Below are positions 17,965 through 64,000 of a stretch of 64,000 bases of DNA, piece after piece; within the stretch, counting starts at the first letter, position 1; each line of letters begins with the position of its first letter. The notes beneath the pieces are model-generated. The model worked only from the letters and a program-made list of their open reading frames with translations. It searched no databases and was not told the DNA's origin. The stretch spans positions 124,001 through 188,000 of the forward strand of contig SPEL01000002.1 of the NCBI GenBank assembly GCA_009360885.1, read 5' to 3'. The DNA comes from Sphingobium sp. Lineage in GTDB: Bacteria > Pseudomonadota > Alphaproteobacteria > Sphingomonadales > Sphingomonadaceae. A program made the position numbers and the translations under genes.

Positions 17965-19263
17965 ATGAAAGCATCACTGCGACTGCTGACAAAACGTCGT
18001 TTCGCCCCGCTATTCGTCACCCAATTGCTAGGCGCATTCAACGATAATTTGTTCAAGAACGCCATGGTGCTGTTCGTTGTTTACAATGTTTACAACGACC
18101 CCCATGCCGAAACATGGTTTAGCGCCATTGCGACAGGCCTCATCACCTTGCCCTTCTTCCTGCTATCAGCCATTTCCGGGCAACTCGCGGACCAGCGAGA
18201 CAAAGCCGCCATCATCCGTATGGTAAAGCTGGCAGAGATTTTCATCATGCTGGTGGGAGCGGCTGGCCTCGCACTAGCATGGGCGGGCATCGCCATCCAT
18301 ATCATCGCCGTGCCGCTGATGTTGACAGCCTTGTTCGCCATGGGGGTTCATTCCACTTTCTTTGGCCCGATTAAATATGCGATATTACCGCAACATCTTG
18401 AAAAAGATGAAGTATTAGGCGGAACTGGTCTGGTTGAGGCAGGCACCTATATTGCCATATTGGGCGGCACCATATTGGCCGGACTTATCCCGATTGAGGT
18501 TGCCGCCTGCGCGGTCATCATCACCGCTCTCATTGGCTATGCCAGCGGGCGGCAGGTCCCACCCGCGCCAGCCCTTGGTGAAACCACCAAAATTGACTGG
18601 AATATTTTCCGTTCCTCTACCCATCTTATCTGCGGCACCATGCATATTCGTCCGCTGTTTCTGGCGATTATCTCCATCAGCTTTTTCTGGACGATCGGCA
18701 CGGTGCTGTTCATTCAGTTCCCGCCCCTCGTTAAAAATATATTGATGGCGGATAAGCCTGTGGCCAGCCTGTTTCTGGGCGTTTTTTCTGTGGGCGTGGC
18801 GCTAGGCTCTATCGTTATCAACCGCCTTTTGGGCGGGGAGGTTTCCGCTAAATATGCCCCAGCGTCGGTGCTCGGCATGGGTGTGTTTGTTGTCGCTTTC
18901 CATATCCTCTGCCGCATGTGGAACAGCGGCCTGCCTGCTGGCGAGTTCATGAATATACATGATTTTATCGACCATGGTTATGCGGGGTGGATGCTTTTCA
19001 CACTACTCGGCATCGCGACGGCGGGCGGGATGTTCGTGGTGCCGCTCTATGCTTTTCTCACCACCACGGTGGAGAAATCACAAGCCGCACGAACTGTCGC
19101 CGCCAATAATATCGTCAACTCTGGCGCGATGGTGGTGGGCGCTGTCATCACCCTTGGGATGAGCGCTGTGGGCATTGATGTTGTCGATCAGCTTTTGCTG
19201 GCGGCGGCGATGTCGATTGTTTCGGCCTGGCTCGCGCAGAAGTTGCACCGCGCCTGCGATTGA
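17965..19263 (+). CDS. MFS transporter, LplT-like (lysophospholipid transporter family)
   Basis: An inner-membrane protein of about 432 residues with roughly 12 hydrophobic segments. The N-terminal LTKRRFAPLFVTQLLGAFNDNLFKNAMV and HSTFFGPIKYAILPQHL with GTGLVEAGTYIAILGG are typical of LplT and of the transporter half of Aas-type fusions, which flip lysophospholipids for re-acylation. No acyltransferase or acyl-ACP synthetase domain is attached here. The ATG at 17965 gives the family N-terminus; a TTG at 17941 is upstream. Its last codons form the first arm of a tandem stem-loop repeat. A phospholipid methyltransferase-like gene lies beyond the next gap. Confidence 0.8.
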   Translation: MKASLRLLTKRRFAPLFVTQLLGAFNDNLFKNAMVLFVVYNVYNDPHAETWFSAIATGLITLPFFLLSAISGQLADQRDKAAIIRMVKLAEIFIMLVGAAGLALAWAGIAIHIIAVPLMLTALFAMGVHSTFFGPIKYAILPQHLEKDEVLGGTGLVEAGTYIAILGGTILAGLIPIEVAACAVIITALIGYASGRQVPPAPALGETTKIDWNIFRSSTHLICGTMHIRPLFLAIISISFFWTIGTVLFIQFPPLVKNILMADKPVASLFLGVFSVGVALGSIVINRLLGGEVSAKYAPASVLGMGVFVVAFHILCRMWNSGLPAGEFMNIHDFIDHGYAGWMLFTLLGIATAGGMFVVPLYAFLTTTVEKSQAARTVAANNIVNSGAMVVGAVITLGMSAVGIDVVDQLLLAAAMSIVSAWLAQKLHRACD

Positions 19264-19337
19264 GCAGGCGCGCAACACATAAGACCGCCTGCGATTGAGC
19301 AGGCGCGCAACACATAAGACCGCCTGCGATTGAGCAG
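19251..19337 (+). repeat. Tandem 35-bp repeat of stem-loops at the 3' end of the transporter gene
   Basis: The unit starts at 19251, 19286 and 19321, with the third copy truncated. It contains the perfect stem CGCCTGC/GCAGGCG around the loop GATTGA, then CGCAACACATAAGAC. The first copy overlaps the last codons and TGA of the transporter gene, so the gene end itself was amplified. The stems lack a T-run, so any terminator activity would be Rho-related or via mRNA 3'-end protection. Confidence 0.8.
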
Positions 19338-44481: not shown

Positions 44482-44961
44482 TTATCCCCCGTGCCAAACA
44501 TTCATCAGATGGCGTGGCGGACGCCCCCGCGCAAGGAGCATCACGTCAATTTGCATATCATCGCCGATTTTCAGATAGCGATGGGCCAGAGCTTCCGCCG
44601 CCGCCGCGACGCGTAACAGGCGGCGTTCATCAATGGCATGGTCAAGGTCGGCCACGCTGGCCCGCGCCTTCACCTCAATGAAGGAGACGATTTTGCCTTT
44701 ACGGGCGATAATATCGACCTCGCCCGCCCGTATTTTCACCCTCCGGTCGAGGATGGTCCAGCCCTTTAGGCGCAGCCACCATGCGCAGATACGCTCCGCC
44801 TGACGACCAAATTGCTCCGCCTGAAGGCGGGATGAGCGGGGCTTCAGCCGATTATTGCCGCCCGGTTGCGCCGGGGTGCCATGGCCCGGAAAGTCATGCC
44901 CTGTAAAATCATGACCCGTAAAATCATGACCCGTAAAATCATGGCGCAGCTTATTCCTCAC
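44482..44961 (-). CDS. yraN: YraN family (UPF0102) endonuclease-like protein with N-terminal pentapeptide repeats
   Basis: 159 residues. The UPF0102 domain is AERICAWWLRLKGWTILDRRVKIRAGEVDIIARKGKIVSFIEVKAR, a restriction-endonuclease-like fold with the D...ExK catalytic residues; its function is unknown. The start is a GTG whose GTGA overlaps the rsmI stop. That fixes the reading of four tandem five-residue repeats (HDFTG x3, HDFPG, residues 7-26), which are not part of the family. The repeat is recent at DNA level (15-bp unit). Confidence 0.88.
   Translation of the reverse strand: MRNKLRHDFTGHDFTGHDFTGHDFPGHGTPAQPGGNNRLKPRSSRLQAEQFGRQAERICAWWLRLKGWTILDRRVKIRAGEVDIIARKGKIVSFIEVKARASVADLDHAIDERRLLRVAAAAEALAHRYLKIGDDMQIDVMLLARGRPPRHLMNVWHGG
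44884..44943 (-). repeat. Tandem 15-bp repeat in the yraN 5' coding region
   Basis: Four copies of a unit reading CATGATTTTACGGGT on the minus strand encode HDFTG, HDFTG, HDFTG and HDFPG. The middle copies are nearly identical and the outer one has drifted. The length keeps the reading frame. Confidence 0.9.
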
Positions 44962-56419: not shown

Positions 56420-57145
56420 TCAGACAGACATGGGGTTACGGTCCAGCCTGCGACCCAGCATAACGAACAGATAGATGACCGGCGGCACTAGCAAGATCGA
56501 CAACACCACCTTCGCCATCATCTGCCCCAGCAAAAGCTGACCAATTGGGAACACTCCGTAGAAGGAAATGGAAACGAACAGCAACGTATCAACAATCTGT
56601 GACAAGACGCTGGCCAATGCTGCACGCAACCACAAAAGCCGTCCGCCCGCCTGCCCTTTCAGCGCCGCAAAAAGCGTGACATTGAGCGTCTGTGACACGC
56701 CATAAGCGATAATCCCACCCAGCCAGATGCGCGGGGTCCCACTCATCATCAGTTCGAAGGCCGCGCGGCGTTCCGGCTCCATTTCGGCAGAGGCCGGAAC
56801 CGCCAGCACGATCACCGACAGGATAATCGTGACGATGAGCGGCAGGAACCCCACTTGCACCAGACGGTTCGCTACTTTCCGGCCATGGAGTTCCGCAACC
56901 ACGCTGGAAATCGTCACCAACAGCAGAAACGCGAAAATTCCGGCCTCTACCGCTAGCGGACCAATACCGAATACCGGGCCAATGGACGATAAAGGCCCCA
57001 GCGAAACCTGCTTATTTCCCAGTACACCCGCAATACAAACCAGCCCACCATAGAGAATGGAAAAAACGAACAGAGAAGGCGGAAATGAGAGCCTGCCCCC
57101 CGCCCCGTTCAAGCCCTGTCCATTCTGCAGCTCATCATTCATCAT
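56420..57145 (-). CDS. Queuosine precursor transporter (YhhQ/QPTR, VUT family)
   Basis: About 241 residues with six or so membrane segments. SLFVFSILYGGLVCIAGVLGNKQVSLG, ISSVVAELHGRKVANRLVQVGF, GGIIAYGVSQTLNVTLFAALKG and ASVLSQIVDTLLFVSISFYGVFP are YhhQ signatures. It imports queuine or preQ1 for tRNA modification. The ATG at 57145 is my choice among three close candidates (TTG 57160, ATG 57145, ATG 57142). It precedes the secretion genes' downstream end and is probably unrelated to them. Confidence 0.87.
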   Translation of the reverse strand: MMNDELQNGQGLNGAGGRLSFPPSLFVFSILYGGLVCIAGVLGNKQVSLGPLSSIGPVFGIGPLAVEAGIFAFLLLVTISSVVAELHGRKVANRLVQVGFLPLIVTIILSVIVLAVPASAEMEPERRAAFELMMSGTPRIWLGGIIAYGVSQTLNVTLFAALKGQAGGRLLWLRAALASVLSQIVDTLLFVSISFYGVFPIGQLLLGQMMAKVVLSILLVPPVIYLFVMLGRRLDRNPMSV

Positions 57146-57185
57146 CTGATCCGTCTTCAATCATGATTGTCTTCGTTCGCTCTTG

Positions 57186-58031
57186 TCATCCGCGCATCAG
57201 CAGATGCTGCATCAGGAACTGCGCAGGCAGCGCCGCCATGCATAAAAATGTACCAAAAGCGATGCGGGTCGTCGCATTAATATCCGCGCCCATGATCTTC
57301 CGCCCGATCACCCACAACAAGGCTGCTACCGACGCCAGTAACAGAATGAACGGCAACACCTGACAACCCATCCACGCACCAAGCGCGCCCAAGAGCTTTG
57401 CATCACCCAATCCAAGCCCATCCCGGCCACGCAGGCGTCTGTATCCCATGGCGACCACCAGCAACGAACCATAGCCGATTGCTGCCCCGATAAGCGCATC
57501 CTGCAAAGTCACGCCCGTCACCCATGGACCAATGGTAAGCCCAAGAAACAACAGAGGCAGAGTGATCGCATCAGGCAGCCAGTAATATCGCGCATCCAGC
57601 AGCGCGAGAGTGAGCAATGCCCAGCCCAGGACCATCCATGCCGCCGCCAATGGCAGGGCCGCCAGCAGGACATGCATCACCGGTTCTGCCACCACTGCGC
57701 CAGCCATAAAGGTATGCGCCATCACCGCCTGACCCGCCAAAATCATGGCCGCCGTGCCAATGACACCGCACCCCGCCTCCATCAGTATATGGGCTTTGTC
57801 TATCTGCCCACCACAGGAACGACATCGGCCTCGACACAGCATGAAACTCAGCAATGGAACCAGTTCCCATGCACTCAGGGGTCGCCCGCACCCATCGCAT
57901 ACCGAACGCCCGCCCAGCACAGAACGCCCCTGCGGCCAACGCACCACTAATGCCCCTAGAAAACTGCCGAAAATCAATCCTAATCCCAGCCCTATCGCTG
58001 CCATCAGGACCAGTAATGCAACAATCTTCAC
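57186..58031 (-). CDS. gspO: Prepilin peptidase / N-methyltransferase GspO (PilD type)
   Basis: A 281-residue polytopic inner-membrane enzyme that cleaves prepilin leaders after the conserved Gly and methylates the new N-terminal Phe. The N-terminal methylase domain has four zinc cysteines (CDGCGRPL, then CRGRCRSCGG, about 44-75). The aspartyl-protease aspartates are in LLDARYYWLPDAITL (about 147) and the GxGD motif GLGLGDAKLLG (about 206). It closes the gsp run; its start overlaps the gspN stop. It must process the unusual GspG, GspH and GspI leaders. Confidence 0.94.
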   Translation of the reverse strand: MKIVALLVLMAAIGLGLGLIFGSFLGALVVRWPQGRSVLGGRSVCDGCGRPLSAWELVPLLSFMLCRGRCRSCGGQIDKAHILMEAGCGVIGTAAMILAGQAVMAHTFMAGAVVAEPVMHVLLAALPLAAAWMVLGWALLTLALLDARYYWLPDAITLPLLFLGLTIGPWVTGVTLQDALIGAAIGYGSLLVVAMGYRRLRGRDGLGLGDAKLLGALGAWMGCQVLPFILLLASVAALLWVIGRKIMGADINATTRIAFGTFLCMAALPAQFLMQHLLMRG

Positions 58032-58798
58032 ATCTGCCCTTCCAGCGATAGCACATACTCTTCGCCCCGCTGCGTCAGGCCTGCCGCCAGCAGCGCCGCA
58101 CTATCAACATCGCGTCCCTCGCGGACCACCAGTTGCGCCGTGTAATGGCCATCACGACGCACACGCAGGGTCATCGTCTCCAGCCCAGTCTGGCTAACCA
58201 GTGGAAACTGCACCGCCTCTCCGTCACAAATAGCCGTTCCGCTCACCCCTTGCGACAGGTTGAGTCCGGCGAAACTACTATTTAACCGCAGACGCAATTG
58301 CCCTTCTGCCCGCGAACAGAGGTTACCGGAGAAAATCGTGGTCAGCCCGCTCATCTCCAGCGTCGATACCGGAACAATGCCCAGCACCCCATCGGCGGCA
58401 AGCGTGCCCGTCATATTTTCCATACCGCTCTGGCCAAAGCCATTGATCCACGCCCCGCTCAGCGGCCCCGCGACGTCATTTTCGCGTACTATGTTCATGC
58501 GCAACCGTGCCATCAACAGATCAAGCGGTGCAACGCCAACCCGCACATCACCCACATGCACATTGCCCACATGCACATTGCCCAGCATCAGCCCATAAAT
58601 CTGGCCAGACCAGATGCTCCCCCGCACCTGTCGCGCACTGATACCGCCATCAGACGAGGCAAGCCCCGTCATATCCATCGCCAGCCGTAACGGGAACAGA
58701 ACCAGCGCAACCAGCAGCGCGAATAGCAACGCAGCTATCGGCCTGCGCTTCATCCACCCCCTCTTCACCCACTGCCGCCCCGTGAAACCCTCCGTCAT
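58028..58798 (-). CDS. gspN: Type II secretion protein GspN
   Basis: A 256-residue protein with one N-terminal membrane segment (RPIAALLFALLVALVLFPLRL) and a periplasmic beta-rich domain. The domain shows ARQVRGSIWSGQIYGLMLGNVHVG and PLDLLMARLRMN, as in GspN. GspN is not universal among type II systems. A five-residue repeat (GNVHVG-NVHVG-DVRVG, about 62-76) is encoded by a short 15-bp tandem repeat. Overlaps gspM and gspO by four bases. Confidence 0.82.
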   Translation of the reverse strand: MTEGFTGRQWVKRGWMKRRPIAALLFALLVALVLFPLRLAMDMTGLASSDGGISARQVRGSIWSGQIYGLMLGNVHVGNVHVGDVRVGVAPLDLLMARLRMNIVRENDVAGPLSGAWINGFGQSGMENMTGTLAADGVLGIVPVSTLEMSGLTTIFSGNLCSRAEGQLRLRLNSSFAGLNLSQGVSGTAICDGEAVQFPLVSQTGLETMTLRVRRDGHYTAQLVVREGRDVDSAALLAAGLTQRGEEYVLSLEGQM

Positions 58799-59322
58799 TG
58801 CCCGGCCCCCTGCGCAGCGCCATCGCCAGAGCGACGAAAACTGAGCTGCGCGCTAACGGTGCCATTCGCACCGGAGGGGGATATCATCGCCCGTTCGATG
58901 GCAATGCCCTGTTTCTCCAGCGTGGTAATCCAGCCTAGCAAAGCAGTTGACCGGGCGCTGGCAATCGTCAGTTCCACACCCTGCATCCCCTGCGCCTGCA
59001 CGCGATCGGGCGTGAAGCCAGCCTCAGCCGCACTTTGCGTCACCATTTGCTCTATCGAGGCCGCACCCGCGCCAGATGCGCCCCCATTACCGCCCGGAAT
59101 GCCGCCCTCCCCCTGCTTTAACCAGCCGGTTTTGCGCACCATGTCGGCATGGCGCTCCACCGCTTCTGCATTAGCAAGCGCGGCATCACGCAGGGCCTGC
59201 TGCGAGGGACGCCATAGGCCGAGCCACAGGATAATTCCTGCCATCAGAACCAGCATCGCGCCCAGCAATATTTGCTCCCGCCGGGCGCGGCCCAACCACC
59301 ATATTTTCACCCCATCCATCAT
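58795..59322 (-). CDS. gspM: Type II secretion protein GspM
   Basis: A 175-residue protein with a single N-terminal membrane helix (QILLGAMLVLMAGIILWLGLW, about 19-39). A coiled segment (ALRDAALANAEAVERHADMVRK) and the periplasmic ferredoxin-like GspM domain (SIEQMVTQSAAEAGFTPDRV, VELTIASARSTALLGWITTLEKQGI) follow. It partners GspL in the inner-membrane platform. The start overlaps the gspL stop. Confidence 0.88.
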   Translation of the reverse strand: MMDGVKIWWLGRARREQILLGAMLVLMAGIILWLGLWRPSQQALRDAALANAEAVERHADMVRKTGWLKQGEGGIPGGNGGASGAGAASIEQMVTQSAAEAGFTPDRVQAQGMQGVELTIASARSTALLGWITTLEKQGIAIERAMISPSGANGTVSAQLSFRRSGDGAAQGAGQ

Positions 59323-60584
59323 GGCTTCACCGTAATTTCTGCAATCACCCGTCCACCCGGATCGGTCGAGGAGGTTGCGGTGATCCTGTACCCCGCCCCC
59401 TGCACAGCGGCCAGAACACGGTTAATCTCGTCCGCCTGCGCCGATGCCAATGTAGCATGGAGCAGGCCATCTTCACGTAGGCTGAGGGAGCTGATGCTTA
59501 CCCCCGGCACAGGACGCATCGCCTGCATCAGGCCGGCAAGTGGCCCGGTAAAGGCATAAGCCCCGCCCTGTGCCGCGACCAGCCGGTCGATTTCTGCCAC
59601 CGCCTGCGTAGCATCCGCCGCATGAGGGGCATAAGGCCGGGCCAGTTCCAATGTTTTTGCGTCCATCTTCGCGGCGCTAATATGATATTTCGCAGTCAGC
59701 ACCAGTGGGGCCAGCAGCGTCAGCAGCAGCGCCAGCCCTGCCCATAGCATCACGCGCTTTGCCCAGTTCACATCCGCACCGCTGCTCTGCCGCAATGCAA
59801 AGGCACCGCTGCGCAGATTAACAACCGGGCCAGCGAGAGAGGACATCAGCCCCTGTTCCGCCTGCTGTGCCGACCAATCCACCACCGGTGCATCCCCGAT
59901 TATGGCGCTCAGCCATGGCTCGTCCGCCTGAGCAACCATTCCCTGCCCGCGCACAACTGCGCCATCCCCGAAAGGAACCCGGATCATGCCCTGCTCCGGT
60001 TCCGGCAATAGCGTCGCAACCGGCACAATCTGGGTTGGTTCTACCCCGACGTCCCTCGCCCAGCGCAGGATATGGTCCATATCGGCGCGGGCAATTACTG
60101 CGACCTCTATACCGGGATTATGGAAGCCACCACTCTCTCTAACTTCGCTATCCGTCGCATCATCCACCGTAACAGGAGAGGCACTTTCACCCGCCACCAC
60201 AGCATGCATTGCCCCGGCACTCTCCACGCCATCCGCCATCGCCTGATGGAGCGCAACGGCACGCAATTGCGCATCAGACAGCGGCTTTTTCCCACTTCCC
60301 GCAGCCATAACAGACTCTCTCAGAGTCACATGGCGCACCACAGCAAGCGAAGGCGGCAGAAGCATCGTTATGGGCGCAGCATTTTCCACCCAGTCCGGCC
60401 TTTGCGCTCCGCGATGGCGGGCGACAATCTGCCCATCAGCGACCCGCCACCAATGAGGCATGGCCTGCCGATCTGCCGGATAAAGGAGGAGACAGCCATC
60501 AGCCGTCGCCCTTCCACCATCAGACACCGCAGCGGCATCCTTCCTCCGCCCGCGCATTATCTTCTTCACCCTTCGTCCCCCCAT
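59319..60584 (-). CDS. gspL: Type II secretion protein GspL
   Basis: A protein of about 421 residues with a cytoplasmic actin-like domain (from about 30), one membrane helix (RVMLWAGLALLLTLLAPLVLTAKY, about 278) and a periplasmic domain (AGLMQAMRPVPGVSISSLSLREDGLLHATLAS). It links the GspE ATPase to the pseudopilus assembly platform. The frame overlaps the gspK 3' end by 19 bases; a later in-frame ATG (about 60557) would abolish the overlap. Sequence conservation in GspL is low, so context carries much weight. Confidence 0.86.
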   Translation of the reverse strand: MGGRRVKKIMRGRRKDAAAVSDGGRATADGCLLLYPADRQAMPHWWRVADGQIVARHRGAQRPDWVENAAPITMLLPPSLAVVRHVTLRESVMAAGSGKKPLSDAQLRAVALHQAMADGVESAGAMHAVVAGESASPVTVDDATDSEVRESGGFHNPGIEVAVIARADMDHILRWARDVGVEPTQIVPVATLLPEPEQGMIRVPFGDGAVVRGQGMVAQADEPWLSAIIGDAPVVDWSAQQAEQGLMSSLAGPVVNLRSGAFALRQSSGADVNWAKRVMLWAGLALLLTLLAPLVLTAKYHISAAKMDAKTLELARPYAPHAADATQAVAEIDRLVAAQGGAYAFTGPLAGLMQAMRPVPGVSISSLSLREDGLLHATLASAQADEINRVLAAVQGAGYRITATSSTDPGGRVIAEITVKP

Positions 60585-61558
60585 GATGCCCGCATCAGGC
60601 GCACCGGCGCATTGCGCGCATCATAGAGCCTCCACTGCCGCATTGATGTTTCCCCAAGTTGCACATTCAGCTCTACCCGGAACCATGTTGTCGTCAACCG
60701 CACCTGTTCCGCCACCTCCGCCGGGGGTATCATATCGCGCTGCGCGGGTATCGCCCAAAAAGCAGGCACACTATCATACCCCCCTGCCGGACGCTGATTA
60801 ATGAGAGCGCGGGCGCTTTCCAGCGGCATTTTCCCCGGCACCATCATTGCAATCAGCGGAGCCTGACCGGACGCTAATGTGTTGACATTAATGGGGGAAA
60901 GGCTCGTCGTCGGCAGCGCGCAAATCCACGGCCTCACCAGCGCATAAAGGCGCGGCGTTACCCCCGCAACGGCGCGCAGTTCACTGGGGTCCGCCATCAG
61001 TTGATTAGCCGTACGATAAGAGGGCGTCATTGCGATATAATGCTCATCCTCAGCGCCGCTTTTGCCCGGAACGCTATCGCTATCAATCCAGTCCGCCGCC
61101 GCGCTGGCGACCTGATACGCCTCGCCAGAACGGATACCCAGCACCTCCATCAAGGCAGCAAATTGGGTGATAGCAACCGGACGGCGATACAAGGCCCCGC
61201 CTTCATTACCGCTGACAAGGCTATTGAGGTTAAAGCAATTGCCGCCATCGTAAACAGTGATGGATGCCCCGCCACCGGGAACCGGTACATCTTGCGGGCG
61301 GCCAATCCAGCCCTGTTGGGTGGTCATCCGCGCAGGGTTCTGTTCAACTATGCGATTGAGGCGATGCTCTACCAGCAGGCTGGCGCTATCGGCATAAGCG
61401 CGGGCCTGATCCAGCGCAGAGGCATTGGCCGCGAGGCGGGTGGAGAGCGTCAGCCGTTCGAGTACCACCGCCGACACCACCGCCATCACTGCGACCAGCA
61501 TCAGGACTGTTAGCAACGCCGCACCATTTTCGGACCGAGGGGGGATAGGCGATGTCAT
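60566..61558 (-). CDS. gspK: Type II secretion minor pseudopilin GspK
   Basis: A 330-residue minor pseudopilin of the tip complex. A short leader MTSPIPPRSENG precedes the hydrophobic helix AALLTVLMLVAVMAVVSAVVLERL. As usual for GspK, the mature protein lacks Glu at +5. A large insertion-bearing domain follows (DGGNCFNLNSLV, ASAAADWIDSDSVPGKSGAEDEHY, the GspK calcium-binding region, PINVNTLASGQAPLIA). The leader's RSENG resembles the repeated RSAENG of its neighbours but is a single copy. Overlaps gspJ by four bases. Confidence 0.93.
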   Translation of the reverse strand: MTSPIPPRSENGAALLTVLMLVAVMAVVSAVVLERLTLSTRLAANASALDQARAYADSASLLVEHRLNRIVEQNPARMTTQQGWIGRPQDVPVPGGGASITVYDGGNCFNLNSLVSGNEGGALYRRPVAITQFAALMEVLGIRSGEAYQVASAAADWIDSDSVPGKSGAEDEHYIAMTPSYRTANQLMADPSELRAVAGVTPRLYALVRPWICALPTTSLSPINVNTLASGQAPLIAMMVPGKMPLESARALINQRPAGGYDSVPAFWAIPAQRDMIPPAEVAEQVRLTTTWFRVELNVQLGETSMRQWRLYDARNAPVRLMRASWGDEG

Positions 61559-62226
61559 AAAGGCCCGCCTTCGACAGACCCATCGACAGTCCCCATTGCG
61601 TCAACGGAAGCCCCCTGTTCCGCATCTTTTCTGCCTATCTTGCCGACGCCTACGCGCATCATCAGGGTGAGCGGGGCCTGCCCCCGGCGCGTCAGTGTCA
61701 TCCGCAGCGCCACAGGCAGCGAAGCCGGGCGCTGGCTCTGCCATGTATCCAGCCATTCGCCTTTGCTATCCCGAAAGGCGAGTTGCAGTGCCCCCACATT
61801 ATCGAGCAGCAATGCCGGTTCACCTCCCTCTGCTCCATCCGGCATCGGGTAGAAACGCCGTTCCAGCCGCCCATCCCGCAACCAATATTCCACCTTTTGG
61901 ATATTAGCGCGCGGGGCATTATCGGCATTATTCCACCCGCCGCGTACAAAATGGAGGAAAGGCTCTGTATCCGATGGAGCGCGGGAGAAAAAAGCAGGCG
62001 CGAGCAAGCCATTTTCAGTGCGGCTGATGCGGGGTAAGGCCTGCGCCATATCCTGCTCCATCAATGCAACAACGCGCAGCAAATCCCCTTGTTCTTCCAG
62101 ACGTTGCTTCACCGCTCCCTGCGCCGATACGCTGTTACCGAGGAGTAAAACCCCCGCCGCCGCCAGCATCGAAAAGATCATAAGAGCGACCAATAACTCT
62201 ATAAGAGTAAAGCCTTTTTCTTTCAT
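61555..62226 (-). CDS. gspJ: Type II secretion minor pseudopilin GspJ
   Basis: A 223-residue minor pseudopilin. The prepilin signal is short and normal: MKEKG|FTLIELLVALMIFSMLAAAGVLLL, with Glu at +5. The family body includes LEEQGDLLRVVALMEQDMAQALPRI, VEYWLRDGRLERRFYPMPDG and LLLDNVGALQLAFRDSKGEW. It joins GspI and GspK at the pseudopilus tip. Its ordinary five-residue leader contrasts with the expanded leaders of the three genes upstream. Confidence 0.94.
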   Translation of the reverse strand: MKEKGFTLIELLVALMIFSMLAAAGVLLLGNSVSAQGAVKQRLEEQGDLLRVVALMEQDMAQALPRISRTENGLLAPAFFSRAPSDTEPFLHFVRGGWNNADNAPRANIQKVEYWLRDGRLERRFYPMPDGAEGGEPALLLDNVGALQLAFRDSKGEWLDTWQSQRPASLPVALRMTLTRRGQAPLTLMMRVGVGKIGRKDAEQGASVDAMGTVDGSVEGGPL

Positions 62227-62804
62227 GACGGATTTTCCCGCAGGAAAGAAAGGGCCGTGGCCGTAGCCTCATCCTTTGATCGGAGGCTCAGGTCTACCCG
62301 CAGCAAACCGCCCTCTCCCGTGCGGCTGACCCGGCGCACCCAATGCCATGTGCGCCCGCCATTTTGCACCTCTCCCCTGCTTTCGCCGGGCGCCAATATA
62401 TCGGGCGAGGTCTGTGCATCGACCATCAGATTATGGGCCGTGATGCGGGCCATTTGGCGGTCGTCCAAATCCGCCGCGCTGCGCACGGCAACGGCCTGAA
62501 GCCGAATGAGCGCCAGTGCCGCAAGGCTGAATATCGCGAGGGCAACCAGCATTTCGAGTAACATGAAGCCCTGCCCAGCGGAACGCGCAGGAGACGTGAA
62601 GCCCTGTTCGGAGGAGCGCGTAGGAGACGTGAAGCCCTGTTGGGCGGAATGCAAACGAGGAGTGAAGCCCTGCCCAGCGAAGCGTCGCCGCCAAATGAAG
62701 CCCTGTTGGGCGATCCCTACAGAGGGCGTACAGCCCTTCTCTGGGATATGTCCGGCATGACGACGCCCATAAGAGGAGAAGAGCCGCACCACCCTAACCA
62801 CCAA
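62223..62804 (-). CDS. gspI: Type II secretion minor pseudopilin GspI with a 79-residue repeat-expanded leader
   Basis: A frame of 193 residues. The mature part starts FMLLEMLVALAIFSLAALALIRLQAVAVRSA, with Glu at +5, then the GspI body (HNLMVDAQTSPDILAPGESRGEVQNGGRTWHWVRRVS). The leader holds six 11-residue units, with Gly at residues 24, 35, 46, 57, 68 and 79, each ending like a cleavage site (QQGF, GQGF, EQGF). Only the last is followed by Glu at +5. No in-frame ATG precedes the cleavage site. GTGs near the gspH stop (62801, 62792, 62789) or a TTG are the upstream starts, and a TTG inside the repeats is a shorter option. Confidence 0.88.
   Translation of the reverse strand: MVVRVVRLFSSYGRRHAGHIPEKGCTPSVGIAQQGFIWRRRFAGQGFTPRLHSAQQGFTSPTRSSEQGFTSPARSAGQGFMLLEMLVALAIFSLAALALIRLQAVAVRSAADLDDRQMARITAHNLMVDAQTSPDILAPGESRGEVQNGGRTWHWVRRVSRTGEGGLLRVDLSLRSKDEATATALSFLRENPS
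62553..62750 (-). repeat. 33-bp tandem repeats in the gspI leader (six units)
   Basis: Six in-frame units, period exactly 33 bp. The plus strand shows recurrent GAAGCCCTG followed by GGCGGAA-like blocks with about ten variable bases between. The innermost unit forms the real cleavage site. Units share longer tracts with those in gspG (for example GCAAACGAGGA) than expected for independent origin. Confidence 0.93.
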
Positions 62805-63450
62805 CCTTCACCCGGCCCGCACCATCCAATGTAACAGCAACCTCCTCCCCATCCCGCCGCAGCACCAGACGCGCCGCTTCCCCCGGCAAGCCCATGCTGT
62901 CAAAACGAATGACCACACGCCCCGATGACGGCGCATCGGATTTTTCGGTTTTCTGCGTCGTATCCGTTCCGCCTGTGGCCTTTTTCACGTCAAGGAACGC
63001 CCGCGTTCCATGGCTCCAATCGACCGCCCGAAAAGGGCCATTATCCATCGCCGTCCACTGGCCTTTATCCTGCTGTTCAAACCCATAAGCAGTCGGAGAC
63101 ACCCAGAAGGCAACAGGCCGCGCACGGATGATTGCATGATCCCGCGCAGCCGCCACACGCATGGCAAAGCCATCGGCATCATCCACCAGCCGACCGCGAG
63201 GATCTGGCATCATCAACAGCACCGCCGCCGATGCGAAACCGATAATGGCGATAACAACCATGAGTTCGACAAGCGTGAAGCCGTTTTCGGTGGAACGCCG
63301 AGCATAAGTGAAGCCCTGCCCGGCGGAACGCCGAGCATAAGTGAAGCCCTGCCCGGCGGAACGCGTCAAAGACGGGAAGCCCCGCCCCCCACATTTCCGC
63401 ATAAGCATAAGGCGGGGGAAGCAGCCTCTATCCATATGTTCCGCCCGCAC
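62794..63450 (-). CDS. gspH: Type II secretion minor pseudopilin GspH with a repeat-expanded leader
   Basis: A frame of 218 residues from a GTG at 63450; the ATG at 63435, after GGGCGGA, is the likelier start (213 residues). The mature protein starts FTLVELMVVIAIIGFASAAVLLMMPDPRG and has a GspH body (DGFAMRVAAARDHAIIRARPVAFWV, FDSMGLPGEAARLVLRRDGE). Before it are four 11-residue units with Gly at 24, 35, 46 and 57 (numbering from the GTG). Two adjacent units are identical (RSAGQGFTYAR). No start codon lies between the repeats and the cleavage site, so the repeats must be translated. Confidence 0.92.
   Translation of the reverse strand: MRAEHMDRGCFPRLMLMRKCGGRGFPSLTRSAGQGFTYARRSAGQGFTYARRSTENGFTLVELMVVIAIIGFASAAVLLMMPDPRGRLVDDADGFAMRVAAARDHAIIRARPVAFWVSPTAYGFEQQDKGQWTAMDNGPFRAVDWSHGTRAFLDVKKATGGTDTTQKTEKSDAPSSGRVVIRFDSMGLPGEAARLVLRRDGEEVAVTLDGAGRVKVGG
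63265..63396 (-). repeat. 33-bp tandem repeats in the gspH leader (four units)
   Basis: Four in-frame units with period 33 bp. The copies at 63299-63331 and 63332-63364 are identical base for base, a sign of recent duplication or homogenisation. The last unit supplies the true cleavage site (STENG|FTLVE). Confidence 0.95.
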
Positions 63451-63464
63451 GGCCCATCACCCTA

Positions 63465-63998
63465 TTAAAGATCGCCGGAGTAAATATCCGCATTGTCATC
63501 TGTTCCGCCCGGCTGACCATCAGCGCCGAGAGAATAGATATCAAATGCGCCCTTCTGGCCCGGCACCTTATAGTGATAAGCACGGCCCCATGGATCATCC
63601 GGCAATTTCTTAACATAACCGCCACGACGGTAGCGTTCCGGCTGGGCAAGGCCGACAGGTGCGCTGATGAGTGCCTGAAGCCCCTGATTTTGATCGGGAT
63701 AGCTGAAAGTATCGAGGCGATATTGCTCCAGCGCCTGCTCTATGACCGCGATATCGGCCTTAGCCTTTTCCTTGCGGGCGGTATCGGTAGCGGGAATGAC
63801 ATTGACGGCCACGATCGTCGCCAGCAGGCCGATGATGACGATAACCACCATCAGTTCGACAAGCGTGAAGCCGTTTTCGGCGGAACGCCGCACAGACGTA
63901 AAGCCCTGTTGGGCGGAACGCAAACGAGGAATGAAGCCCTGTTGGGCGGAACACCGCACAGACGTGAAGCCGTTTTCGGCGGAACGCCTGCGCGCCAA
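63465..63998 (-). CDS. gspG: Type II secretion major pseudopilin GspG with a repeat-expanded leader (5' end near window edge)
   Basis: The mature pseudopilin is about 134 residues, normal for GspG. It starts FTLVELMVVIVIIGLLATIVAVNVI and ends with the GspG calcium-site region (DPWGRAYHYKVPGQKGAFDIYSLGADGQPGGTDDNADI). Before the cleavage Gly lie four 11-residue units (Gly at 10, 21, 32, 43). The only in-window full-length start is a TTG at 63998, so translation may begin beyond the edge with more units. A GTG at the beginning of the last unit would instead give a normal leader of eight residues (MRRSAENG). Confidence 0.93.
   Translation of the reverse strand: MARRRSAENGFTSVRCSAQQGFIPRLRSAQQGFTSVRRSAENGFTLVELMVVIVIIGLLATIVAVNVIPATDTARKEKAKADIAVIEQALEQYRLDTFSYPDQNQGLQALISAPVGLAQPERYRRGGYVKKLPDDPWGRAYHYKVPGQKGAFDIYSLGADGQPGGTDDNADIYSGDL
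63855..63986 (-). repeat. 33-bp tandem repeats in the gspG leader (at least four units)
   Basis: In-frame units with period 33 bp: RSAENGFTSVR, CSAQQGFIPRL, RSAQQGFTSVR and then RSAENGFTLVE at the true site. The outermost and innermost units share the ENG form, the middle ones QQG. The array may extend past the window end. Confidence 0.93.
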
Positions 63999-64000
63999 CA

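Follow-up and report, generated by a model that had tools for sequence, protein, structure and literature searches.

The 64,000-nucleotide stretch of Sphingobium sp. DNA analysed here (assembly GCA_009360885.1, contig SPEL01000002.1, positions 124,001 to 188,000; hereafter the window) carries at its right end, on the minus strand, the type II secretion system (T2SS) genes gspG-H-I-J-K-L-M-N and a prepilin peptidase gene, as identified by Pfam matches. The closest named GspG found, that of Sphingobium jiangsuense, is 84% identical to the GspG of the window. Tandem Repeats Finder (TRF) located three arrays of period 33 (62564–62679, 63288–63387 and 63864–63988), and these lie in frame within open reading frames (ORFs) matching Pfam T2SSI, GspH and T2SSG, respectively. 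The arrays occupy the leaders of the pseudopilins GspI, GspH and GspG, and the subject of this report is the 21-nt core of their repeated unit, which is conserved as nucleotide sequence. TRF and in-frame reading confirmed four 33-bp units in GspG, four in GspH and six in GspI, with a Gly every 11 residues, as had been claimed in the original prediction, which was made from the window sequence alone.

The gene for the major pseudopilin, gspG (63465..63998, minus strand; Pfam T2SSG, 4e-39), lies partly inside the window. Its ATG is outside, at the equivalent of position 64061, where locus L045 reads gspF stop, GGAG, 7 nt and ATG, giving a 64-residue leader. The mature Phe+1 codon starts at 63869, and pattern matching placed the terminal-unit core (RRSAENG↓FT, presumably the site that is actually cleaved) at 63866–63887 and three upstream units at 63899–63920 (LRSAQQGFTSV), 63932–63953 (RCSAQQGFIPR) and 63965–63986 (RRSAENGFTSV). 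In gspH (62794..63450, minus strand; Pfam GspH, 5.5e-10), the ATG at 63402 gives a leader of 41 residues, and the start codon closest to the cut, whatever its kind, is a TTG that gives one of 30; the array (63276–63363) comprises a terminal unit at 63276–63297, upstream units at 63309–63330 and 63342–63363, and, just upstream and reaching to about 63396, a degenerate fourth unit. The TTG and GTG starts of gspI (62223..62804, minus strand; Pfam T2SSI, 1.4e-16), at 62804 and 62801, overlap the gspH stop and give leaders of 79 and 78 residues, the nearest start (TTG) giving 29; its array (62564–62684) has a terminal unit at 62564–62585 and upstream units at 62597–62618, 62630–62651 and 62663–62684, and the two most upstream units, beyond 62684, are more degenerate. 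The class III motif (G-1, F+1, E+5 and a hydrophobic helix) is present at the last unit of the window pseudopilins. Pfam N_methyl covers this unit in GspG and GspH and is also found in GspJ, which has no array, and GspI matches T2SSI but not N_methyl. On the opposite strand of the gspI array, an open frame (62506–62760, plus strand) with a repeated V-K-P-C motif is probably a spurious ORF.

For comparison we used genome samples of the genus (61 genomes), family (298) and class (289), together with 138 loci (L045–L182). Three of these loci lacked gspG by pattern, and the remaining 135 reduced to 102 distinct loci. Stop codons were counted in the 75 loci with gspG, gspH, gspI and gspJ in order (61 in what we call the Sphingobium set, namely L045–L095 plus L103–L150, which includes metagenome-assembled genomes and one record titled Novosphingobium); eight loci added by gene order gave the 83 (65 in the set) on which the unit counts and later results rest, and 19 were left out. 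Under our rule, a unit matches at least five of seven residues, Gly being required, and 11 first units lie at this threshold. The species are related, and the compared pairs are thus not independent.

Each unit consists of the 21-nt core, CGTTCCGCC[G/C]AACA[C/G]GGCTTC, and a variable spacer of 12 nt. The core codes for R-S-A-[E/Q]-[H/Q/N]-G-F, which includes the prepilin-peptidase site, and does so with codons that are disfavoured in the mature parts of these genes (CGT, 9%; TCC, 13%; CAA, 17%). A terminal unit occurs in 115 of the 260 genes of the Sphingobium set, with a common block, CGTTCCGCC[G/C]AA(C/A)A[C/G]GGC↓TTCACG, starting at about -18; the third base of the Thr+2 codon is G in 88% of these genes, while in the 145 lacking the unit it is most often C (49%). 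Core and spacer were compared in 41 inner upstream units (a single one from each array; 27 genomes), that is, in units other than the presumed cleavage site. The mismatch was 0.074 at 18 core positions (excluding two positions that switch, described below) and 0.503 at nine spacer positions, so that the whole unit does not evolve alike, as it would in a coding minisatellite; at third codon positions, the values were 0.093 in the core and 0.458 in the spacer. Because the detection rule looks at residues, the third-position conservation was not selected by it. In the terminal cores, mean synonymous mismatch was 0.154, 0.109, 0.156 and 0.091 for gspG, gspH, gspI and gspJ, respectively; outside the closest pairs it levelled off, even as mismatch in the mature genes climbed to more than 0.6 (gspG, gspH and gspI) or 0.52 (gspJ). 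In the family sample, 63 of the 78 listed places that encode S-A-E-H-G-F-T share a single encoding, by our count. Four of the listed places lie elsewhere and use other codons; the three that were read are not pseudopilins, and the fourth, unread, is G274:C71. As judged from the sequences, these comparisons show the core to be conserved as a nucleotide block across genera, and the spacer not.

The ratio of non-synonymous to synonymous differences (pN/pS) in the core of upstream units was 0.78 between genomes and 0.82 within them, and that of the terminal unit was 0.39 between genomes. The upstream units thus appear to be under little amino-acid constraint, and their nucleotide sequence is conserved, synonymous positions included. 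These values bear on the original prediction that the repeated peptide mimics the cleavage site and that its G-F-T sites might recruit GspO, retard insertion or allow stepwise trimming. Retention of Phe in 146 of the 155 upstream units agrees with such a function (Gly is required by the detection rule), but mimicry at the peptide level leaves the conserved third codon positions unexplained, and a pN/pS near 0.8 is not what it would predict. At position +5, 127 of the 155 upstream units have Arg and only one has Glu, which bears out the earlier observation that Glu+5 is essentially confined to the last unit. Furthermore, no leader among 132 genes contains, in frame 0, a 17-residue window with hydropathy above 1.6. 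We therefore regard a function of the peptide itself as improbable. A charge signature of the leader was also considered and rejected, since the two wrong frames are even more positive.

The arrays also differ along their length. Edge units carry 2.52 mismatches per 21 nt (n = 87), against 0.88 in inner units (n = 68), a pattern to be expected of arrays that gain units close to the cleavage site and decay at the upstream end, and the arrays do appear to change in this way, by in-frame tandem duplication; the earlier suggestion that duplication took place around the cleavage site is supported. The same suggestion held that units had spread among the genes. Spacers of different genes in one genome mismatch at 0.467, compared with 0.523 after permutation (3 of 300 permutations as low), which supports some spread of units between paralogues; the cores gave no significant difference in the same test (0.198 versus 0.217; 35 of 300), so that this part of the claim is borne out by spacer likeness and not by the cores. 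Head-to-tail copies that vary in number are features of a coding minisatellite, and it is conceivable, if rather unlikely, that the array is a neutral, tolerated one: the leader is cut off, an in-frame insert is harmless, and the 33-bp unit is slippage junk. The wide variation in copy number, the decay of the edge units, the pN/pS near 0.8 of the upstream units, and the occurrence of unrelated dispersed repeats, also in frame, in these leaders are all in keeping with it. However, a neutral core should decay as fast as its spacer, and it does not; nor should it stop diverging while the genes diverge. Neutrality explains the variation in copy number and the edge decay, not the contrast between core and spacer.

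With regard to the unrelated inserts, Sphingobium and Sphingomonas loci have dispersed repeats that lie in frame in their pseudopilin leaders. Those of locus L058 (1539–1616 and 3001–3093) recur across genome G037, where the gspG insert gave 64 matches and the gspJ insert 19, palindromic places being counted on both strands.

In 125 genes whose mature N-terminus is separated from the preceding gene's stop by 30 codons or more, eight stops were found among the 6195 codons of frame 0, which was stop-free in 117 genes; the other two frames together had 344. Six of the eight are the second codon after the stop of the upstream gene, before any start, and the remaining two lie in leader gaps of one locus, L081 (gspG and gspH). 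Since these long frames are nearly stop-free, the array-bearing leaders are very probably translated. The alternative, that the repeats are untranslated and translation begins at the last unit, draws on the many last units that begin with TTG, GTG or ATG, 7–8 codons before the cut. Apart from the openness of frame 0, it is opposed by 43 of the 87 array genes, among them gspH of L081 and gspH and gspI of the window, in which the stretch starting at the first upstream unit contains no ATG, GTG or TTG; short of a non-standard start, that unit must be translated in these genes. A start at the last unit is thus very improbable. One practical consequence is that, for sphingomonad pseudopilins, start sites and leader lengths are easily mis-annotated.

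At least one extra unit in gspG, gspH, gspI or gspJ was found in 43 of the 65 loci of the Sphingobium set, and in 41 under a stricter rule, which gave none at seven off-register spacings. Of 248 testable genes, 75 had a unit at the upstream offset of 11 residues, and none had one at offsets of 8, 9, 10, 12, 13, 14 or 15. By gene, extra units were present in gspG at 23 loci, gspH at 23, gspI at 11 and gspJ at 18 (n = 65). The comparison of copy number in related genomes that the original prediction had called for thus revealed variation between species, the counted loci having between 0 and 7 extra copies in each gene. The maximum of seven is that of gspJ in L135, so that the earlier statement that GspJ lacks units holds for the window genome, where gspJ (61555..62226, minus strand; Pfam T2SSJ, 1.9e-36) has the short leader MKEKG (cleavage region MKEKG↓FTLIEL) and no extra unit, but not for its relatives. 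In S. jiangsuense DSM 26189, arrays are present in gspG, gspH and gspJ. Outside the set, extra units were found in L151, L154, L156, L162 and L163; a unit flagged by the rule in L174 looks like a false positive. Two peculiarities of gene arrangement were noted among the loci: in Sphingobium sp. AP50 a gsp region with the same leaders occurs on two different contigs (L121 and L122), and in L096, L099 and L100 the order of the minor pseudopilins looks changed, with a gspI-like gene before a gspH-like one.

At the nucleotide level, allowing one mismatch at most, the core pattern matched 54 of the 61 genus genomes, and a reversed-pattern control matched none; GspG itself was found in 58 of the 61, G032 and G042 showing only a divergent one. 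The matches listed share a single strand within each genome, G008 being the exception with an additional near-match on a separate contig. Of the 298 family genomes, 23 carry the exact core; they represent 12 of 96 genera and include the window genome, and in all 23 the one locus read was in frame in a pseudopilin leader. The sole match in the class sample was the window's own genome, and a nucleotide search of plasmids returned one short gspG match, from Sphingomonas parapaucimobilis. The core is also present in leaders of divergent T2SSs, namely the second T2SS of G047 and that of G032, where no other was seen. In what was searched, the core is therefore nearly restricted to the leaders of GspG, GspH, GspI and GspJ. 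The largest number of exact cores, 27, was found in a genome of a different genus, G198, whose gspG array runs off the start of its contig (L213, 1–225), so that its length there is a minimum. Although arrays can sit at contig breaks in this way, they recur in many independent assemblies, including the one-contig genomes G051 (11 matches) and G153 (5), and the probability that they are assembly artefacts, a possibility raised with the original prediction, is negligible.

A contrast within the operon is provided by gspK (60566..61558 in the window, minus strand; Pfam T2SSK), which has a short leader. Although GspK, too, is a prepilin encoded in this operon, its leader was unexpanded in all 64 loci with gspK found (it was not found in one of the 65), with gaps of 7.3 to 16.3 codons; gaps of at least 30 codons occur in gspG, gspH, gspI and gspJ of 55, 34, 19 and 24 of the 65 loci, respectively. 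The earlier claim that GspK lacks units therefore holds throughout, and the exclusion of GspK is not expected of a neutral array. Since the mature start of GspK is not F-T, it is without a sequence where the core could be copied. Its leader is also without other inserts, which suggests that it is constrained.

The core contains a potential hairpin, GCCG-AACA-CGGC or GCCC-AACA-GGGC, with an inner stem of 4 bp. The bases closing the loop switch jointly: 97 upstream units have G-C and 35 have C-G (n = 155), and the corresponding numbers for terminal units are 81 and 29 (n = 125). This pair is complementary at a frequency of 0.89, compared with 0.586 after shuffling, and none of 500 shuffles was as high. 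Fold z-scores were -2.82, -3.69 and -2.53 for three consensus units, and -2.07 and -2.08 for the gspG and gspH arrays of the window. The inner hairpin is part of the minimum free energy (MFE) structure in 104 of 149 distinct units, the median z-score of which was -1.31, compared with -0.02 for 120 control windows from mature genes. In near-intact units variation is higher in the loop (0.076) and at the outer positions (0.160) than elsewhere. We conclude that nucleotide conservation is firm and that pairing, as far as the sequences tell, is likely but not proven.

Palindromes within coding sequence are known from several systems, which are compared here as described in excerpts of the cited papers. 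Rickettsia palindromic elements (RPEs) are selfish in-frame palindromes in genes, and an NH2-terminal decoration of this kind is reported to be expressed in R. conorii (PMC10969869, PMC3733652). The core resembles them as palindromic DNA that keeps the host reading frame open, but according to these excerpts RPEs are about 150 bp long and reside in unrelated genes, whereas the present unit is 33 bp, tandem and located in leaders of one gene family, with only pseudopilin genes among the 23 loci read. Repetitive extragenic palindromes (REPs) of the GTAG and CGTC super-families measure 20–40 bp, some of them inside ORFs (PMC3733652); the likeness would lie in a short palindrome with a probable stem-loop. 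REPs as portrayed there are of high copy number and mostly intergenic, in contrast to the core, which is of low copy number, intragenic and in one orientation, the loci read being all pseudopilin leaders. Assignment to the CGTC-tagged REPs was rejected, since only 36 of 155 upstream units have CGTC after the core and the 4-bp inner stem is shorter than the 8–9 bp given for that super-family in the same source. The horizontally distributed palindromic coding repeats of PMC2996958 share with the core the property of being intragenic coding repeats common to microbes; by the account in that excerpt they stay in the translation product, whereas the leader repeats are presumably removed.

These parallels suggest another explanation, namely that the core is a selfish palindrome copied by a host or mobile enzyme, as is thought for REPs and REP-associated tyrosine transposases (RAYTs), and that the leaders are the surviving sites, where a frame-compatible copy restores G↓F-T. 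It would account for conservation limited to the core, for the imperfect palindrome, for the presence of the core in four paralogues and in the divergent T2SS leaders, and for the fact that each copy supplies its own G-F. On the other hand, it explains the core and not its absence elsewhere: apart from the G008 near-match there is no copy elsewhere among the matches listed, the orientation is single, and a Y1 transposase (Y1_Tnp, PF01797) was matched in only two of 12 core-bearing genomes (G000 is only 80% complete). A RAYT-driven REP was rejected on these grounds. The missing Y1 transposase does not exclude the CGTC super-family, because the REPs of that group are said, in the excerpt of PMC3733652, to lack one. 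Overall, we consider a selfish palindrome unlikely.

Long prepilin leaders as such have precedents. The leader of prepilins is cytoplasmic, variable in length and cut after its last residue, Gly or Ala, by prepilin peptidase, and long leaders removed by this enzyme are found in type IVb pilins and in type IVa pilins of Streptococcus sanguinis (excerpts of PMC10191384). The passages on those pilins mention no repeats, whereas the T2SS pseudopilin leaders described here are built of repeats and vary between species; a search of open-licence PubMed Central papers retrieved none on repeats in pseudopilin leaders. In our case, the presumed leader-cutting enzyme is the prepilin peptidase GspO, encoded at 57186..58031 on the minus strand (Pfam A24_N_bact and Peptidase_A24). 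It would cut at the last site, because only there do Glu+5 and a membrane helix follow. The array would then be thrown away with the leader, so that carrying it in frame would cost little at the protein level, and the core would be kept owing to its recognition at the level of nucleic acid; most likely it would be a cis-acting site, either a stem-loop in the message or a site on the DNA, with an effect on how the filament-forming pseudopilins are expressed or processed. The leader would thus be a place where the core could persist in sequence and vary in copy number, the mature proteins remaining unaltered.

We give an even chance to the general form of this proposal, that the core is a cis-acting DNA or RNA site retained in leaders which are discarded through the action of prepilin peptidase. 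Its fuller form is put forward more tentatively, as one that may well be wrong: a cis-acting signal, most likely a stem-loop, with a regulatory or recombination role, that is housed in the cleaved leaders of four co-assembling pseudopilins in a dozen Sphingomonadaceae genera and kept out of GspK. Several results speak against a cis-acting site or against its stem-loop. The unit rule relies on amino-acid likeness, which inflates conservation at first and second codon positions. In near-intact units the stem varies at 0.018 (two of its positions belong to the Gly codon fixed by the detection rule), and the unpaired TCC/TTC positions vary as little, at 0.022, for which reason low stem variation was dropped as evidence of pairing. 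The sole covarying pair may represent one old double change spread by copying. A 6-bp outer stem in the consensus fold was also rejected, four of its pairs being at chance and two reaching only 26 and 27 of 500 shuffles. The gspI array of the window folds worse than its own shuffles (z = +2.23), and Rfam gave no match in 57000–64000 up to an E value of 1. In gspH of L081, the in-frame stop is followed by no standard start before its unit, which could reflect a broken gene, the use of a non-standard start or a misassembly. Lastly, 22 of the 65 set loci have no extra unit and 275 of the 298 family genomes lack the exact core (those among them with a T2SS were not counted), so that any function must be dispensable.

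If the core is such a site, a protein segment that is presumably removed would host a DNA or RNA element, and the core would be a candidate for the control of pseudopilin expression in T2SS. Leaders are usually seen as plain targeting tags; here the leader DNA hosts a conserved motif whose copy number varies between species.

Three further repeats were noted in the window. A 15-bp repeat inside gspN (58543–58584) codes for repeated G-N-V-H-V / G-D-V-R-V segments. Another 15-bp tandem repeat, of 4.3 copies with 87% matches, lies at 44880–44943, and a 35-bp tandem repeat of 2.5 copies with 100% matches is located at 19251–19337, far from the pseudopilin arrays.

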